Positions 44,811 to 54,416 of a stretch of 64,000 nucleotides of DNA are shown here, piece after piece (position 1 is the first letter of the stretch; each line of letters opens with the position of its first letter). The notes below the pieces were generated by a model that saw only the letters and a program-made list of their open reading frames with translations, had not been told where the DNA came from and ran no database searches. This DNA is from a gamma proteobacterium symbiont of Stewartia floridana. GTDB taxonomy: Bacteria; Pseudomonadota; Gammaproteobacteria; Chromatiales; Chromatiaceae. The DNA is taken from positions 62,001-126,000 of the forward strand of contig NAUB01000026.1 in the NCBI GenBank assembly GCA_003676145.1. The letters run 5' to 3'. A program made the position numbers and the translations under genes.

Positions 44811-44921
44811 AATTCATAACTGGTCGTCAAGACTCCTCTCATGTTGAATAAGCAGTGGGTAATTCTAACTTTCCTTAAGAATCACCCAATCTCAAGATTA
44901 TTATTACATGGAGTAAGTGAT

Positions 44922-45944
44922 ATGACAGGAGTAAATGCAACAAACCAGTGTGGATGTCCAAATCCAATGGATGACACATCGGTAACCAGGGGCTGTGGAA
45001 AAACAGTTCTTGATGCAGGGAATGGTGATGACAACATTAACGTTCATACCAACTTCGATGGATCGGTTGATGTATGTGTTAATGGCAAAAACTACAGTTT
45101 CAGTGCACAAGAGGCACAAAATCTCGAAATCCGTGGTGGCAATGGTAATGACAACATCACCATGAGCGGCCAACAGCTCTGCGGTCCTAAAAACAATATT
45201 ACCCTGAATGGTGGTAATGGCAACGATACGTTACGCGGTGGATCGGGTAACGACACACTGATCGGTGGTAATGGTAATGATCGCATAAGCGGCGGCAGCG
45301 GCGATGACACGATCATTGGTGGTGCCGGCGACGATTGCATTCGTGGAGGGAGTGGTAATGACTCCATCTGGGGTGGTGGCGGCAATGACCGTATCAGTGG
45401 CGGCAGTGGCAATGACATCCTGGTGGGTGGTAGCGGTGATGACTGCATCCGTGGTGGTAGTGGAAACGACTCCATCTGGGGTGGTGCCGGCAACGACCGT
45501 ATCAGCGGCGGCAGTGGCAACGATCGACTGATTGGCGGTAGCGGAGATGATTGTATTCGCGGTGGTCGCGGAGATGACTCCATCTGGGGTGGCTCCGGTA
45601 ACGATCGTATCCATGGTGGTCGTGGCGATGACATGATCTCCGGCGGTTGTGGCAATGACAATATTCGCGGCGGTCGCGGCGACGACAGGATCTGGGGTGG
45701 TCATGGCAATGACGTCATCCGAGGTGGTCGTGGCAACGATACCATCCGTGGTGGTTGCGGAGATGACTACATCAACGGAGGAAGAGGTTGCGACGATATC
45801 TCTGGTGGCCCTGGAAATGACAAGATCCGTGGTGGCTTCGATCTGTTCAATCCTCTGTCACACCTTTCCTGCCTGCTGGGGGGCGGTGGTGGAAATCTGT
45901 TGGGCGGTGGAGGGTTTCCGCTGAACCTGATCTCTCCCAGATAA
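44922..45944 (+). CDS. GGxGxD repeat (RTX-like) calcium-binding protein, effector candidate
   Basis: I start at the ATG at 44922 (MTGVNATNQCGCPN) since GGAG lies 8-9 bases upstream; a longer frame exists. The 340-residue protein lacks a signal peptide. After a short Cys-containing head it has a domain DAGNGDDNINVHTNFDGSVDVCVNGKNYSFSAQEAQNLEIRGGNGNDNI, then about 20 nonapeptides of the GGSGNDxIxG form rich in GDD and GND, and a Cys- and Gly-rich end. RTX-type parallel beta-rolls bind calcium. The VNGKxYxFxxxEAxNLxIRGGxGxD domain also occurs, as I recall, ahead of catalytic domains in some type III effectors, so a type III substrate is possible. No RTX type I transporter is near. Confidence 0.85.
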   Translation: MTGVNATNQCGCPNPMDDTSVTRGCGKTVLDAGNGDDNINVHTNFDGSVDVCVNGKNYSFSAQEAQNLEIRGGNGNDNITMSGQQLCGPKNNITLNGGNGNDTLRGGSGNDTLIGGNGNDRISGGSGDDTIIGGAGDDCIRGGSGNDSIWGGGGNDRISGGSGNDILVGGSGDDCIRGGSGNDSIWGGAGNDRISGGSGNDRLIGGSGDDCIRGGRGDDSIWGGSGNDRIHGGRGDDMISGGCGNDNIRGGRGDDRIWGGHGNDVIRGGRGNDTIRGGCGDDYINGGRGCDDISGGPGNDKIRGGFDLFNPLSHLSCLLGGGGGNLLGGGGFPLNLISPR

Positions 45945-46020: not shown

Positions 46021-46620
46021 TTAGTAATATCTAATTAATCCTCTTAAGATTCCCTGGATCTGGATTTGATCAGGCTTGTAGATCATCGGACTCATGCTTG
46101 CATTGGCTGGGTGAAGAATAGTTTTACCTGGTTGTTGTTCAAGGCGTTTCAAGGTTGTCTCCTGCTGATCAATCAACGCAACCACGATGTCTCCGTTATC
46201 TGCTGCTGCAGACTGTTCAATGACGACATAATCTCCATCGAAGATTCCCTCATCGATCATCGAATCACCCGATACCTGGAGCGCATAGCGGGGTTTACTG
46301 GCCGCCATAGAGTCTGGCACTGAGATCTTTTCAGTTTGCTCAACGGCCTCGATGGGACGTCCGGCAGCGATCCGTCCCAACATAGGTATCCCCTGCTCTT
46401 GCTGTGCTGCTGATACCAGTCGAATGCCACGCTGTTTTCCGGCCATGGGTTCGACCAGGCCCGCCATTACCAGGGCCTGGATATGTTTGTGCAGGGATCC
46501 CCGCGAACTCAACCCCAGCCGTTGACAGAGTTCATCGTAGGTTGGTGGTCGCTGCATCATATCCGCATCACTGCGCAGAATATCGTAGATCTCTTGCTGT
46601 CTTCTGGTTAATCGCATCAT
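46021..46620 (-). CDS. lexA: LexA-family SOS repressor, divergent from mrfAB-like operon
   Basis: The 199-residue protein has an N-terminal winged HTH (RLTRRQQEIYDILRSDADMMQRPPTYDELCQRLGLSSRGSLHKHIQALVMAGLVEPMAGKQRGIRLV) and the S24 self-cleavage domain with cleavage site IAAGRP, catalytic Ser in GDSMIDEGIFDGD and Lys in ETTLKRL. All needed residues for RecA-triggered self-cleavage are present. The HTH (SSRGSLHKHI) differs from E. coli LexA, so a different operator is expected, and the divergent region carries GTTCTC/GAGAAC sites rather than CTGT-N8-ACAG. It may be a second LexA of the genome dedicated to the mrfAB pair. Confidence 0.9.
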   Translation of the reverse strand: MMRLTRRQQEIYDILRSDADMMQRPPTYDELCQRLGLSSRGSLHKHIQALVMAGLVEPMAGKQRGIRLVSAAQQEQGIPMLGRIAAGRPIEAVEQTEKISVPDSMAASKPRYALQVSGDSMIDEGIFDGDYVVIEQSAAADNGDIVVALIDQQETTLKRLEQQPGKTILHPANASMSPMIYKPDQIQIQGILRGLIRYY

Positions 46621-46631
46621 AGGGCTTGTTT

Positions 46632-46677
46632 GTTCTCCTGTTGTTCTCTATTCTAGACTAGAGAACGGATAGAGAAC
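46632..46677. promoter_or_regulatory. Symmetric four-half-site operator between lexA and mrfA
   Basis: GTTCTC occurs at 46632-46637 and 46643-46648; GAGAAC occurs at 46661-46666 and 46672-46677. The spacing is 11 bases in each pair and the whole 46 bases are symmetric about 46654/46655. The inner pair is GTTCTC-TATTCTAGACTA-GAGAAC. It fills almost the whole 63-base divergent gap, 12 bases from the lexA start and 6 from the mrfA start. It is the obvious binding site for the LexA-family protein. No E. coli-type SOS box is present. Confidence 0.85.
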
Positions 46678-46683
46678 AGACTG

Positions 46684-49095
46684 ATGAGCAGACCTGCAGA
46701 ATCGATTCACTCAGATACCGGCATCCCGCTTGGCCATTCTCCCGATCAATTTGCTGATCAACTGCGACAGCGCAATGGGGAGCGAATTACCGGTGAGCTG
46801 ACCATTCCGGCCCGCAGAGGCAAATTTGCTCCATTTCCTGATGATCTTGACCCTCGCTTGACCCGTGCCTTGATCAGCAGAGGAATTAAACAGCTCTACT
46901 CTCATCAGGCTGCTGCCTGGAGCGCGATTCAGTCGTTGCAACATACCGTGGTTGTCACGCCAACGGCTTCCGGAAAGACGCTCTGTTACAACCTGCCGGT
47001 TTTGCAGGCTGCACTGCAAGATCGAGCCAAATCCCTCTATCTGTTTCCCACGAAGGCACTGGCTCAGGATCAGGTCGCTGAAATCAATGAGATCAATCGC
47101 TCGGAATCGCTTGGTATACGGGCTTTCACCTTTGATGGTGATACCCCTGGTGATGCACGAAAAGCTGTCCGGACCAGAGGGGATATCGTGGTCTCAAATC
47201 CGGATATGCTGCATCAGGGCATTCTGCCTCACCACACTAAGTGGGCCCAGTTTTTTGAGAATCTTCGCTATGTGGTGATCGACGAGATGCACACCTATCG
47301 GGGTGTCTTCGGATCCCATGTGGCGAATGTAATCCGGCGTTTGCAGAGAGTCTGTAAATTCTATGGATCCGAACCGCAGTTTATTCTCTGTTCAGCCACC
47401 ATCGCCAATCCCGCCGAATTGGCCAGGGAGTTGATCCATGCCGACGTATCGGCGATTACCGAAAGCGGTGCGCCACAAGGAGCCAGGCATCTGCTGTTAT
47501 GGAATCCTCCGGTTGTGAACCATGATCTGGGTATACGGGCATCAGCCCGCTCCCAGAGTACACGGATTGCCAAGAGTGCCGTAAAACATGGTCTACAGAG
47601 TATCGTGTTTGCCCAGTCCCGACTGATGGTCGAGGTCCTGACCAAATATCTGAAAGACAATTTCGACCACGATCCCCGCTATCCATCACGGATTGCAGCC
47701 TATCGGGGAGGCTATTTACCCACCGAGCGCCGTTCGCTGGAGAAGCGACTGCGTCAAGGAGAGATCGATTGCGTGGTTTCGACCTCTGCGCTTGAGCTGG
47801 GGGTGGATATTGGTTCACTGGATCTCGCAATTCTCAACGGATATCCGGGCACCGTCGCCGCAACCTGGCAGAGATTGGGACGTGCGGGTCGACGTCAGCG
47901 TTCAGCAATCGGAGTCCTTGTCGCCAGCAGCCTGCCACTGGATCAATACATCATTCGCAATCCGGAGTTTTTCCTGGGAGCCGCACCGGAACAGGCTCGA
48001 ATCGATCCGGATCAATTACTGATTCTTTTGGATCACATCCGATGTGCGGCCTTTGAGCTGCCGTTCAAAGAGGGTGACTCTTTCGGCAAACAGGATTTGT
48101 CCGAGATGCTGAGCTATTTGGAAGAACATGGCATTTTACACCGGGAGGCTAAGCAGTGGCATTGGATGGCGGACAGCTACCCGGCCAACAGTGTCAGCCT
48201 TCGTTCTGTTGCAGAGGGTAACTTCGTGGTCATCGATACCACAGATGGAGATAAGCGAATCATTGCTGAAGTCGATTACAGTTCTGCCCCGATGACAATT
48301 TATGAGGGTGCCATCTATATGATTCAGTCGATGCCCTATCAGGTTGAAAGACTCGATTGGGAGGGACGAAAGGCTTTTGTAACCCAGACAAAGGCCGACT
48401 ACTACACCGATGCCATTGACTATACCCGACTTAAGATTCTGCAAAACTTCGAGTCACAAGAGCGTTTCCGCTATCAGGTATCCCAAGGGGAAGTTCACCT
48501 GGTTACCCGGGTTGCCGGTTACAAGAAGATCCGCTACTACACCCATGAAAACGTAGGATATGGCAAAATCGATCTGCCTGATCAGGAGATGCACACCACT
48601 GCGGTCTGGTGGCAGATCAACCCGATTGCACTGGATCAAGCTTTTGCCTCAAGGCAAGCGTCACTGGACGGATTTCTCGGTGCCGGTTACGCCATGCACG
48701 TTATCGCAACCATGCGCATGCTCTCAGAATCACGTGACATCGGTCGGGCCATTGGAGATGGTCAGGACCGCTGGTATGCGAGCCTGGAGAACAGTGGCCG
48801 CGGCACGCTGAGTGACCGCAGCGGGCAAAATATCGATCCAGACAGTCTGGATCAATTCACCCCAACACTGTTTCTCTACGACAACTATCCAGGTGGAATC
48901 GGCATAACAAATCCCCTTTTCGAACTTCGCTCCAGGATCGTTGCTGATGCACGAAGTCTGGTTGAGTCTTGTGACTGTGCCTGTGGTTGTCCTGGATGTA
49001 TCGGCCCGATACTGTCTGGCGACGAACAGGGTGGGAATTCAGCCAAACACTCTGCCTTGACCGTCCTGTCCCTGCTCTCGAACGATGAACCTTAA
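46684..49095 (+). CDS. mrfA: MrfA/YprA-like DExH helicase with four-Cys C-terminus
   Basis: The 803-residue protein is a superfamily-2 helicase of the MrfA/Hrq1 group: Walker A TPTASGKT (92-99), DExH box VIDEMHTYRG (199-205), SATIANPAELA, and motif VI YPGTVAATWQRLGRAGRRQRSAIG. The C-terminal MZB/DUF1998 domain ends in the metal-binding set CDCACGCPGCIGP. In Bacillus subtilis MrfA with its partner exonuclease MrfB repairs mitomycin crosslinks. The next gene, overlapping by 11 bases, is MrfB-like. Divergent LexA suggests damage-inducible control. Confidence 0.93.
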   Translation: MSRPAESIHSDTGIPLGHSPDQFADQLRQRNGERITGELTIPARRGKFAPFPDDLDPRLTRALISRGIKQLYSHQAAAWSAIQSLQHTVVVTPTASGKTLCYNLPVLQAALQDRAKSLYLFPTKALAQDQVAEINEINRSESLGIRAFTFDGDTPGDARKAVRTRGDIVVSNPDMLHQGILPHHTKWAQFFENLRYVVIDEMHTYRGVFGSHVANVIRRLQRVCKFYGSEPQFILCSATIANPAELARELIHADVSAITESGAPQGARHLLLWNPPVVNHDLGIRASARSQSTRIAKSAVKHGLQSIVFAQSRLMVEVLTKYLKDNFDHDPRYPSRIAAYRGGYLPTERRSLEKRLRQGEIDCVVSTSALELGVDIGSLDLAILNGYPGTVAATWQRLGRAGRRQRSAIGVLVASSLPLDQYIIRNPEFFLGAAPEQARIDPDQLLILLDHIRCAAFELPFKEGDSFGKQDLSEMLSYLEEHGILHREAKQWHWMADSYPANSVSLRSVAEGNFVVIDTTDGDKRIIAEVDYSSAPMTIYEGAIYMIQSMPYQVERLDWEGRKAFVTQTKADYYTDAIDYTRLKILQNFESQERFRYQVSQGEVHLVTRVAGYKKIRYYTHENVGYGKIDLPDQEMHTTAVWWQINPIALDQAFASRQASLDGFLGAGYAMHVIATMRMLSESRDIGRAIGDGQDRWYASLENSGRGTLSDRSGQNIDPDSLDQFTPTLFLYDNYPGGIGITNPLFELRSRIVADARSLVESCDCACGCPGCIGPILSGDEQGGNSAKHSALTVLSLLSNDEP

Positions 49096-50299
49096 AACCA
49101 GGCTCAGTCAGCTTCAGAACCAGGCAGGTGGTCGACAAAACTCCCCTGCCCTCTCTTGTCAACCGAATGGCTTGAAGATCCCGCATCGTGTCGGCCAACC
49201 GAACAGGGATAACAATCACAGGCGTCACTCAGACAGCAGGCTGGCCGAACGGCTTCGAGGCAAACTGATCGATGAGGGTGTGATCCAGATCGAAAAGCAG
49301 ATTCCACTGAACTCAACACATGGCGCCATGCCATTAAGTGAATTGCAATATGCTCCGCAACTGCCCGGCGATGATTGTCTGAAGCTGAAGAACGTCTATC
49401 TGGATACTGAAACCACCGGGCTTTCGGGGGGAAGCGGGACCCTGGCATTCCTGATTGGCTATGCCTGGCTGGAGCGATCAGCAATCTGCCTGCGTCAATT
49501 GTTGATCACCCGTTTCTCGGCTGAAGCTCAAATGCTCGAACAAACTGCCTCGGGGCTTGAGGCAGCAGAACGTCTGGTCAGTTACAACGGCAAAAGCTAC
49601 GACCTGCCCCTGTTGGTCAGCCGATTTCGCATCAACGCCCGTAAGCAAAATTTTGATCACCTGCCCCATCTCGATCTGCTGCATGCCACCCGGCGTCTGT
49701 TTCGTCACCATTGGCCGAATTGTCGTCTCACGACTCTGGAGCAACGCCTACTCGGATATTACCGGGTTGACGACCTACCCGGTTCAGAAGCACCTGCCGC
49801 CTGGTTTGACTACCTGCAGCGTGGCGCTGAGCAAAAACTGCTTAAGGTCGTCGAGCACAATCAAAGCGATATTATTTCATTGCTCGTGGCTCATACGGAA
49901 CTTGCGAGGATAACCCGAAACCCGGATCACTCTGATCTGGATCTCTACAGTCTGGCTCGTTGGATTGGGGAATTCGATAGAGAGCAGGCTTACGATCTGC
50001 TGAGGAGTCGAATCGATCAGGCCGATGAAAAGAGCAAAGGGTATCTGGCTCACCTCTTGCAGAAATCGGGAGACTGGCAGGGTGCCACCCGGCTGTGGCA
50101 ACAACTTGCTCTAAAACGCTGCCCGGAAGCGCTTGAAAAACTGGCAAAATACCACGAACACGTGAGCAAGGATCTGGACGCGGCGCGTTACTATTGCCGG
50201 CAGCTTCCAGATTGCCAGGCACGGACTCATCGCTTGAGACGGCTGCAGCGCAAGTCAGGGCTTTATCTGAGTCCAGACCACTCATCGACTATTCTTTAA
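49085..50299 (+). CDS. mrfB: MrfB/YprB-like exonuclease (ribonuclease H-like fold)
   Basis: The 404-residue protein has the YprB ribonuclease-H-like domain (about residues 95-275): NVYLDTETTGLSGGSGTLAFLIGYAWLE holds the first catalytic acidic pair (DTE), SYNGKSYDLPLLVSRFRIN, HLDLLHATRRLF holds a further Asp, and HNQSDIISLLVAH the last Asp. The C-terminal part is TPR-like helical (YLAHLLQKSGDWQGATRLWQQLALKRCPEALEKLAKYHEHVSKDL). It overlaps the helicase gene by 11 bases, as in the Bacillus pair. Damage repair is the expected role. Confidence 0.9.
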   Translation: MNLKTRLSQLQNQAGGRQNSPALSCQPNGLKIPHRVGQPNRDNNHRRHSDSRLAERLRGKLIDEGVIQIEKQIPLNSTHGAMPLSELQYAPQLPGDDCLKLKNVYLDTETTGLSGGSGTLAFLIGYAWLERSAICLRQLLITRFSAEAQMLEQTASGLEAAERLVSYNGKSYDLPLLVSRFRINARKQNFDHLPHLDLLHATRRLFRHHWPNCRLTTLEQRLLGYYRVDDLPGSEAPAAWFDYLQRGAEQKLLKVVEHNQSDIISLLVAHTELARITRNPDHSDLDLYSLARWIGEFDREQAYDLLRSRIDQADEKSKGYLAHLLQKSGDWQGATRLWQQLALKRCPEALEKLAKYHEHVSKDLDAARYYCRQLPDCQARTHRLRRLQRKSGLYLSPDHSSTIL

Positions 50300-52255: not shown

Positions 52256-53527
52256 TTATCCGGTTTGACGTTGTGTTGCTTCTTCATCACATGAGATTGT
52301 TACAGCAATCTCCTGGGTTACATGTTTTTCATCGATCAGACAGGCTTTGGCCCCATCAATGGATGGCATTTCATACATCACTTTTCGCAGCAGCCCTTCC
52401 ATCACGCCACGCAATCCTCTGGCGCCAGTGCCACGATCGAGAGCCTGACGGGCAATGGCGGTCAGTGCCTCGTCAGTAAACTCCAGTTTTACCCCCTCGA
52501 ACTCAAACAGCCTCTGATACTGTCGCTGCAGAGCATTTCGGGGTTGAGTGAGGATTTTCACCAAAGCCTGTTCATCCAGGTCATGCAAAGCTGTAATTAC
52601 CGGAAAACGGCCAATGAACTCCGGAATCAGGCCAAAATGGCGTAAATCCTCAGGTTGTACCTCTTCGAAGAGTCTCAGTTGATCGTAGGCCTTACTGGTG
52701 TCCGATAGATCGACATGGAATCCGATTCCCCCCTTACCGGTATTCATGCGTTTCTCAAGTAATCGCTCCAGCCCGGCAAAAGCCCCGCCTGCAATGAACA
52801 GAATGTTGCGTGTGTCGATGAAAAGCTCTTCACCCGACTCTTTACGACCCTTCTGATTGAGTTTCACCCGGGTACCTTCCACCAGTTTCAAGAGGGCCTG
52901 CTGCACTCCCTCGCCCGAGACATCCCGGGTTCCATGGGATGTTTCCCCGGATCGGGCCAACTTATCGATTTCATCGATATAGATAATGCCCCATTCGGCC
53001 AGTTCCCGATTGCCATCCGCACTGTCAAGCAGGCGCACTATGATGCTTTCCACATCTTCGCCCACATAACCAGCCTGGGTCAGGGTTGTCGCATCGGCAA
53101 TCACAAACGGTACTCCGACGATACGCGCCAGTGTACTTGCCAGCAGCGTCTTACCGGTACCAGAGGGGCCGAGCAACAGGATATTCGATTTCTCGATCTC
53201 CACATCCTGGTCGTTGCTGGTTGGCATCTGAGTGCTGTTTTGCTCCATACTGAGGCGTTTATAGTGATTGTAGACTGCCACTGCCAGGGTCTCTTTTGCC
53301 AGACCCTGATCAACCACATAGCGATCCAACTGCTCTTTCAGCTGGGTCGGCTTAAGCATATTTTCAAACGGTTTAGTGGTGGAGCGACGTCTACCCCAGC
53401 TGGCAACAACCTGAGCGGCAAGGCGTACGCACTCCTCGCAGATATGTCCCTCTATACCGGCAATCAGTGGGATATCCGGTGTCTGCTGTTCACCGCAGAA
53501 AGAGCAGTGTTTGTGATTATCAGTCAT
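52256..53527 (-). CDS. clpX: ClpX-like unfoldase of the nif cluster
   Basis: The 423-residue protein has an N-terminal zinc-binding domain (CSFCGEQQ...CEECV), Walker A LLGPSGTGKTLLA, Walker B IIYIDEIDKLARS, and the GYVGEDVE and sensor-2 segments of ClpX. The Azotobacter vinelandii nif cluster likewise ends in a clpX behind nifM. ClpX-type unfoldases work with ClpP; a role in turnover of nif cofactor proteins has been proposed for the Azotobacter copy. It is the last gene of the nifV operon, 19 bases after nifM. The main chromosomal clpX should lie elsewhere; divergence from it would mark a paralogue. Confidence 0.92.
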   Translation of the reverse strand: MTDNHKHCSFCGEQQTPDIPLIAGIEGHICEECVRLAAQVVASWGRRRSTTKPFENMLKPTQLKEQLDRYVVDQGLAKETLAVAVYNHYKRLSMEQNSTQMPTSNDQDVEIEKSNILLLGPSGTGKTLLASTLARIVGVPFVIADATTLTQAGYVGEDVESIIVRLLDSADGNRELAEWGIIYIDEIDKLARSGETSHGTRDVSGEGVQQALLKLVEGTRVKLNQKGRKESGEELFIDTRNILFIAGGAFAGLERLLEKRMNTGKGGIGFHVDLSDTSKAYDQLRLFEEVQPEDLRHFGLIPEFIGRFPVITALHDLDEQALVKILTQPRNALQRQYQRLFEFEGVKLEFTDEALTAIARQALDRGTGARGLRGVMEGLLRKVMYEMPSIDGAKACLIDEKHVTQEIAVTISCDEEATQRQTG

Positions 53528-53546
53528 TTCTACTCACGTTACCTGG

Positions 53547-54416
53547 CTAGGCAGGAAGTTTGGCTTGCAGACTGTTGAGCCAGGACTTCTGACAATTACG
53601 TCGCTGGCGTTCGGTAAGGATTTCGCGGATCCTTGGCGCTGCTTTTGATAAAGGGACACGTTTGGCCGGTTTGATCTTCTCGCAATAGAGGATGTGCAGC
53701 CCCATATCCGACTCCACGATCGGACTGATTTCATCCAACTGCATATTAAACAGCTCTGCATCCAGAGCTTCATAGAGTTGTCCCCTCGATATCTCGCCCA
53801 GCTTGCCCCCCTCCATGGCAGTGGGGCACTCAGAATAGCGTTTGGCAAACTGTTCAAATCGATTCACTCGACCGGCGAGTTTTTCAATTACGTTCTCCAT
53901 TCGGCTATAGGCCGCAGATCGGGTATTCTCAGGAAAATCCGGGTTAATCGTAATCAGAATGTGACGGGCTATGCGTGTTTCAGGTGTCTGAAAACGATCA
54001 TGATGCATTTCGTAAAACAACTGGATATCGAGATCATTGATATCTGCACCACGAGAGGCTACTTTCTGCATCACTCCATCAAACAGCAGTTCACGATAGA
54101 GTGCACTGCGCAGGCCATCCACATCCAATCCATTGTCCTGCAGGTCGCTGGTGAACTCCTCATTACTCTGATAACGTTCAGCCACTTCCTGAATCGCACT
54201 GTCCAACTGCTGCTCGGAGACAATCACCGTTTCAGCTTCTTTACTGGCGATCACCAGCGATTCAAGATCGAAACTTTTTTCCGCGATCTTGTAGACAGCT
54301 TCGTTCTCAACCGGGTTGAGTTGAGTCAGGTTCTTCTGGTACTTACTCAGTGCATTACGCAACATGTGATAGCTGAATACCGGTGAAACCTCTGGTTTTT
54401 TTTCAGCCAAATTCAT
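53547..54416 (-). CDS. nifM: Nitrogenase maturation prolyl isomerase NifM
   Basis: The 289-residue protein has a helical N-terminal half with a SurA-like part and a parvulin domain (about 165-265: ARHILITINPDFPENTRSA, FEQFAKRYSECPTAMEGGKLGEISRGQL, SDMGLHILYCEKI). NifM helps fold or activate the Fe protein NifH. Its start overlaps the nifZ stop by 4 bases (ATGA), showing coupling. Order nifZ-nifM-clpX is as in Azotobacter. Confidence 0.95.
   Translation of the reverse strand: MNLAEKKPEVSPVFSYHMLRNALSKYQKNLTQLNPVENEAVYKIAEKSFDLESLVIASKEAETVIVSEQQLDSAIQEVAERYQSNEEFTSDLQDNGLDVDGLRSALYRELLFDGVMQKVASRGADINDLDIQLFYEMHHDRFQTPETRIARHILITINPDFPENTRSAAYSRMENVIEKLAGRVNRFEQFAKRYSECPTAMEGGKLGEISRGQLYEALDAELFNMQLDEISPIVESDMGLHILYCEKIKPAKRVPLSKAAPRIREILTERQRRNCQKSWLNSLQAKLPA

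Follow-up and report, generated by a model that had tools for sequence, protein, structure and literature searches.

A LexA repressor gene divergent from mrfAB and its conserved direct-repeat operator in a gammaproteobacterial symbiont

The lexA–mrfAB locus and its operator

We analyzed a 64,000-base stretch of the genome of a gammaproteobacterial symbiont of Stewartia floridana (the window; all operator and gene positions are given in its coordinates), in which a gene for a LexA repressor, here LexA1, is divergent from an mrfA gene that is followed by mrfB. The lexA1 gene (46021–46620, minus strand) encodes a protein of 199 residues with a helix-turn-helix domain (PF01726) and an S24 autoprotease domain (PF00717), which scores 183 bits against TIGR00498, relative to a cut-off of 110.95, and aligns with solved LexA chains across nearly its full length. 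The protein retains the Ala-Gly cleavage pair, Ser120 and Lys158, and the Ala-Gly pair and the Ser/Lys dyad are likewise retained in 48 of 48 LexA1 rows. Judged by its domains, the curated cut-off and its catalytic residues, LexA1 is a true LexA. Its recognition helix reads S-R-G-S-L-H-K-H (residues 39–46), whereas the E. coli-type helix reads S-x-N-A-A-E-x-H.

The mrfA gene (46684–49095, plus strand) encodes a superfamily 2 (SF2) DNA helicase of 803 residues, with the domains in the order DEAD (PF00270), helicase C (PF00271), HRQ1-type winged helix (PF22982) and MrfA Zn-binding domain (MZB; PF09369); its best match in the PDB is B. subtilis YprA/MrfA (6znp, E 1.6e-222). The start of mrfB (49085–50299, plus strand) overlaps the end of mrfA by 11 bases, and its product is a DEDDh-type 3'-5' exonuclease of 404 residues (PF13482) whose sole PDB match is the exonuclease MrfB (8un9, E 1.9e-28), in an alignment that spans the Asp-x-Glu, Asp and His-x3-Asp motifs. 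By domains and nearest structures, MrfA and MrfB are a true pair, and both gene assignments made in a first-pass annotation of this DNA, a LexA-family repressor and an mrfAB-like pair, stood. The nearest named records (MrfA 98%; L086 and L097) are Candidatus Thiodiazotropha, symbionts of lucinid clams. The order of an MZB-domain helicase and then a DEDDh exonuclease is the same in B. subtilis; what differs is that mrfAB here faces a LexA of its own, in divergent orientation, and is apparently controlled by it. For B. subtilis, PMC11194089 connects MrfAB with mitomycin monoadducts and/or intrastrand crosslinks. We consider it most improbable that the pair is instead an antiviral YprA-family system under SOS control rather than a repair system: MrfA does match 64 defence-model entries, mostly through the helicase core among the 25 matches listed, but B. 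subtilis MrfA is by far its best PDB match, its domains follow the MrfA order, and its partner matches MrfB but none of the defence models (three window proteins were compared with the defence library).

The gap between lexA1 and mrfA is 63 bases long (46621–46683). It holds two GTTCTC half-sites (46632–46637 and 46643–46648) and two GAGAAC half-sites (46661–46666 and 46672–46677), spaced by 11 bases within each pair and in exact mirror symmetry around 46654/46655, all as described in the first-pass annotation; the central TCTAGA (46652–46657), unmentioned there, is also palindromic. Read as units, the half-sites form two exact direct repeats GTTCTC-N5-GTTCTC, both of which are kept in relatives. 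Unit A, GTTCTCCTGTTGTTCTC (46632–46648, plus strand), faces mrfA, and unit B (46661–46677), which reads GTTCTCTATCCGTTCTC on the minus strand, faces lexA1, leaving a 12-base centre between them (46649–46660). The pattern GTTCTC-N5..30-GAGAAC matched twice in the window, both times at this operator, compared to a mean of 0.07 matches in 100 shuffled windows, none of which reached two. Across the whole genome, two of the three exact copies of GTTCTC-N5-GTTCTC lie in this gap. The alphaproteobacterial-type box, GTTC-N7-GTTC, is present at 46632–46646 and 46663–46677, while the best match in the gap to the E. coli-type CTGT-N8-ACAG has mismatches at 2 of 8 positions; the operator is, as had been claimed, unlike the E. 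coli SOS box.

Conservation of the direct-repeat unit

A search for MrfA (E 1e-60 or better) in 274 genomes of the class found it in 13, our own genome included. Upstream DNA was readable at 12 of these 13 loci, and lexA was divergent in nine, our own and eight from seven other families. All nine carry at least one direct-repeat unit (eight of eight outside our own genome), and within the genus both units are exact in 14 of 14 rows that have LexA1 beside mrfA, again including our own. Thus, the operator is conserved beside lexA–mrfA orthologues, as the first-pass annotation had expected. We also collected lexA promoters by protein rather than by operator (120 rows, reduced to 88 at a 90% identity cut), scoring a unit where it had at most one core mismatch and lay within 170 bases upstream. 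The unit was present in 49 of 54 promoters of LexAs with the helix S.G..H, compared to 2 of 28 promoters of other LexAs and none of six of alpha-type LexAs.

Exact direct repeats of TTCTC had a period of 11 in 34 of the 54 S.G..H promoters and each other period in at most two; the 34 other LexA promoters had none. Defining a mirrored second unit as one with at most two mismatches, 5–25 bases away, a mirrored partner was found in 35 of the 54, a single unit in 14 and no unit in five, so that 14 of the 49 unit-bearing promoters do without the mirror image. These counts bear on the motif GTTCTC-N12-GAGAAC that had been proposed for the locus. Such a palindrome could be the true site if one dimer bridged the inner half-sites and the outer pair added affinity only, and the exact mirror symmetry and near-perfect central palindrome in the window count in favour of that reading. 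The inner spacing beside MrfA is also narrow: among 26 operators, with 10–16 allowed, it is 12 in three, 13 in 14, 14 in eight and 10 in one, and because it is 12–14 in 25 of 26 the mirrored layout is not arbitrary there. Spacings of 12 and 13 lead among the protein-fetched promoters, with 24 of the 68 pairings counted in the range 5–25, but the distribution is spread, the inner spacing in 40 LexA2 operators runs from 10 to 16, and a spacing of exactly 12 is found in just those three MrfA operators. Since the 11-base period is fixed while the mirrored spacing is spread and dispensable, the conserved element is taken to be the direct repeat. The N12 palindrome was dropped as the conserved unit after this spacing count, narrow as the spacing beside MrfA is, and as the true binding site we judge it quite improbable. 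By these comparisons, what is conserved is the direct repeat GTTC-N7-GTTC, used once or twice, with a mirrored layout that is common, and rather tight beside MrfA, and not required. GTTC-N7-GTTC is the SOS box of Alphaproteobacteria according to the available parts of PMC9578287 and PMC3323433; the lexA promoter of the alphaproteobacterium Cereibacter, taken as a control, reads GAAC-N7-GAAC-N7-GAAC.

Conservation could also be read from the operator side, blind to genes. The pattern GTTCTCN5GTTCT-N12..18-AGAACN5GAGAAC, scanned across 84,980 species, gave 101 stretches against about 0.1 expected (our own estimate, for even base composition), and some of the protein-fetched MrfA loci recur among them. 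A lexA gene pointing away from the operator at no more than 239 bases was found in 76 of the 101. LexA1-type genes adjoin 36 stretches, with MrfA divergent in 23 and RecA in two, and LexA2-type genes adjoin 40, with a Y-family polymerase in 27 of these 40 fetched pieces. Where the fetched piece held no lexA, three stretches lay by MrfA and one by a Y-family polymerase. The 21 by none of LexA, MrfA and Y-family polymerase comprise 12 from Bacteroidales, one from Lachnospiraceae and eight gammaproteobacterial; the Bacteroidales and Lachnospiraceae stretches, several of which are near-perfect hairpins and none of which has a lexA near, were set apart. The rumen Bacteroidales genome RGIG5008 carries at least six near-perfect hairpins, GTTCTCCGATTGTTCTTCG...CGAAGAACAATCGGAGAAC, scattered over L089, L095, L107, L108, L111 and L122 as a dispersed repeat.

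A gene whose product, about 56 residues long, has a single hydrophobic stretch at its C-terminal end adjoins the paired operator in six lexA-free loci (L051 at 1517–1690, L083 at 528–698, L087 at 621–872, L130 at 2022–2249, L120 at 1233–1436 and L066 after 7894), and in several of them a 65-residue protein and tex are nearby. This small membrane protein could be damage-induced, for example as a division inhibitor; a search of 22 genus genomes, made without a positive control, gave no match to it.

Three LexA paralogues and the reach of their sites

Our own genome (97% complete) holds three LexA homologues, none of them E. coli-type. The first-pass annotation had suggested looking for a second lexA, and further LexAs were found, but not as additions to an E. 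coli-type LexA: the idea that LexA1 accompanies an E. coli-type LexA was abandoned, all three LexA matches in the genome falling outside the E. coli-type rows. The lexA2 gene is followed by a gene for a Y-family polymerase, which resembles Pol IV models more closely than UmuC models and scores under the cut-offs of both. Opposite lexA3, transcribed divergently, stand imuA, a gene for an IMS-domain protein (imuB) and dnaE2; ImuA (NF033429, 178 bits) and the error-prone polymerase (NF004225, 1459 bits) both score above cut-off, with the IMS-domain protein between them. By its genes and predicted LexA sites, the LexA3 module fits a LexA-controlled imuA-imuB-dnaE2 cassette. A link between lexA2 and imuA is known in P. 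putida. All three modules, with mrfAB, the Y-family polymerase and imuA-imuB-dnaE2, have direct-repeat sites: the genus LexA2 promoters carry GTTCTC-N5-GTTCTA-like units, and the genus LexA3 promoters carry TTTCTC-N5-TTTCTC twice in five of five. Over the 22 genus genomes, our own included, the LexA model gave 0 to 3 matches each, some of them weak, and no LexA was found at E 0.001 in G287 and G290 (93% and 99% complete).

For a LexA tree, 137 proteins were extracted and 121 used, after excluding those under 150 residues and identical rows; the tree is midpoint-rooted and has several long branches. A branch with 100/99 support sets the 48 LexA1 rows apart. LexA2 and LexA3 make up the neighbour group, with LexA3 nested among LexA2; all remaining rows, E. 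coli-type and alpha among them, fall outside the 108-row LexA1–3 group (98/93, with the midpoint root). LexA1 does not group with alphaproteobacterial LexA, represented by L201, which lies outside, as a single row on a long branch whose own placement is unsure. In the protein-fetched promoters, the first base of the half-site varies together with residue 40 of the LexA, which is position 2 of the recognition helix: where this residue is R or K the half-site begins with G in 118 of 128 cases, compared to 3 of 28 for the eight proteins with Q, V or H. R and K go with G, V mostly with T and H with A, while Q is mixed.

Besides B. subtilis MrfAB, three known systems come close to this arrangement. 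Alphaproteobacterial (Caulobacter-type) LexA reads the same direct repeat, GTTC-N7-GTTC, in the available parts of PMC9578287 and PMC3323433, and its helix, S-K-S-G-I-H-R, is also basic at helix places 2 and 7. LexA1, by contrast, forms a separate clade within Gammaproteobacteria, its units often stand in back-to-back pairs, its core is extended to GTTCTC, and its exact sites are nearly confined to lexA loci. In Pseudomonas putida and Xanthomonas axonopodis, a second, paralogous LexA in the same genome recognizes a binding sequence of its own, as far as the available part of PMC9578287 describes; here there are instead three paralogues, no E. coli-type LexA was found, and LexA1 would guard mrfAB. 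Acinetobacter UmuDAb, according to the part of the source available, resembles LexA and represses genes for error-prone polymerases where there is no LexA, whereas the LexAs here are full LexA by TIGR00498 and have a different operator. Among the literature matches listed, which cover subscription literature only in small part, no title or abstract opening described a lexA–mrfAB arrangement with a direct-repeat operator.

How far these sites reach was assessed by counting exact units. In six genus genomes, GTTCTCN5GTTCTM gave 21 units, of which 18 lie at lexA1 or lexA2 and three are single and unshared; the reversed control gave none, and about 0.5 exact units per genome are expected by chance (our own estimate). 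TTTCTCN5TTTCTC gave 14 units in five genomes, ten at lexA3–imuA, compared to two for its reversed control, both in G281. The third exact GTTCTC-N5-GTTCTC of our genome (L006 1500–2906; C13:209695) precedes genes for a ribbon-helix-helix protein and a C-5 cytosine methylase and may be chance, with no exact counterpart in five relatives; the other two stray units lie inside an open reading frame (L268) and just ahead of one (L266). The genome also has recA, whose promoter contains, 194 bases ahead of the start, the unit GTACTC-AAAAT-GTTCTA, which departs from the LexA2-type unit at one position (L151; C13:194744–194760). The identical unit recurs in a set of close relatives, our own genome included, that makes up six of the 18 genus genomes; none of the other 12 comes closer than three mismatches, and shuffled versions of these promoters come within one mismatch in 0.25% of rows. 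Because the one-mismatch unit is common to six close relatives, this group may have recA as a weak target.

These observations raise the alternative that LexA1, perhaps together with LexA2, is a general SOS repressor with weaker further targets, recA among them, and mrfAB just one of its targets. The shared recA unit counts in favour of this, LexA1-type genes face recA in L104 and L115 and umuDC, with one unit, in a Methylobacter plasmid, and the operator also stands by the small membrane protein gene in the six lexA-free loci. The partnership with mrfAB is, by the same observations, common and not obligatory. Among the carriers of the module, two strains appear to be cultured, Methylonatrum kenyense AMT 1 (L133) and the Ectothiorhodospiraceae isolate WFHF3C12 (L143). 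Set against a general role are the concentration of exact units at lexA1 and lexA2, the poor matches in the 12 other recA promoters, and the mismatch-tolerant counts in our own genome, where 27 unit matches with at most one mismatch compare to 32 for the reversed control, and 285 with at most two to 306. As these counts are no higher than the control, weaker sites are indistinguishable from chance by number. We hold the general-repressor alternative to be unlikely. The small, separate regulon proposed in the first-pass annotation survives in part: few exact sites lie beyond lexA loci, but the LexA1 type is not tied to mrfAB.

Two further features of the window lie apart from the switch. At 52256–54416, clpX stands beside nifM, which suggests a ClpX copy within a nitrogen-fixation cluster, and at 44841–45944 a 367-residue protein consists mostly of RTX calcium-binding nonapeptide repeats, with no other Pfam domain recognised.

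The predicted switch and its meaning

Taken together, gene content and operator conservation point to a real, conserved LexA1–mrfAB switch whose operator is built of direct repeats; with its two sister modules it makes three in this genome, where no E. coli-type LexA was found. It is very likely, on the same grounds, that this is a small autoregulated DNA-damage switch, in which LexA1 would control its own gene and the divergent mrfAB through two back-to-back direct-repeat sites. The layout of the candidate mrfA promoter fits such control: in the window, TTGTTT (46626–46631, candidate –35) is followed by the 17 bases of unit A and then by TATTCT (46649–46654, candidate –10), which lies within the 12-base centre. 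The mrfA-facing unit is followed by TA in 26 of 26 operator-fetched MrfA loci (24 distinct operators), with T at the sixth place in 24 of 26, which yields –10 candidates resembling TATTCT. Unit A is thus a candidate for filling the 17-base spacer of the mrfA promoter.

We infer that LexA1 would repress its own gene and mrfAB by binding the GTTCTC-N5-GTTCTC units, one per promoter, with one LexA dimer probably occupying each unit; LexA1 bound to unit A, between the candidate –35 and –10 of mrfA, would obstruct RNA polymerase. Self-cleavage of LexA1, triggered by RecA on single-stranded DNA, would open both promoters, and the MrfA helicase and MrfB exonuclease would then remove bulky adducts, presumably of the mitomycin type. 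Parallel modules in the same genome would join LexA2 with the Y-family polymerase and LexA3 with imuA-imuB-dnaE2, and recA is possibly a further, weak target.

Several observations weigh against this account of LexA1–mrfAB. Three of the 11 other class loci with readable upstream DNA have mrfA without an adjacent lexA, and two of these three lack a clean operator: L037 has both units, L040 one half-site and L044 no paired half-sites. A generic sigma-70 scan of 46500–46800 called no promoter, and the candidate mrfA promoter is accordingly drawn from conservation. The one-mismatch count in our own genome does not rise above its reversed control, and recA too has a one-mismatch unit. The half-sites of LexA1 and LexA2 are near-identical, so that cross-talk is likely and 'private' is perhaps too strong a word for the switch. 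In addition, related rows inflate the residue–base counts for residue 40, even after the 90% identity cut.

A wider proposal is that the SOS response is here broken into separate circuits, with three LexAs, each acting as chief repressor for a single neighbouring operon of repair or mutagenesis, no general LexA, recA at most weakly tied in, and LexA3 at least kept apart by the code between residue 40 and base 1. We put this forward tentatively and regard it as rather unlikely; if the circuits are separate, different operons could open at different damage levels. The LexA1–mrfAB switch itself would put the MrfAB repair pair under SOS-type control. The E. coli SOS box was defined in Gammaproteobacteria, and the switch would mean that a second LexA lineage, one that recognizes a box of the alphaproteobacterial type, is widespread in this same class. 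The paralogues, each paired in nature with an operator of its own, would make LexA specificity readable and testable residue by residue.

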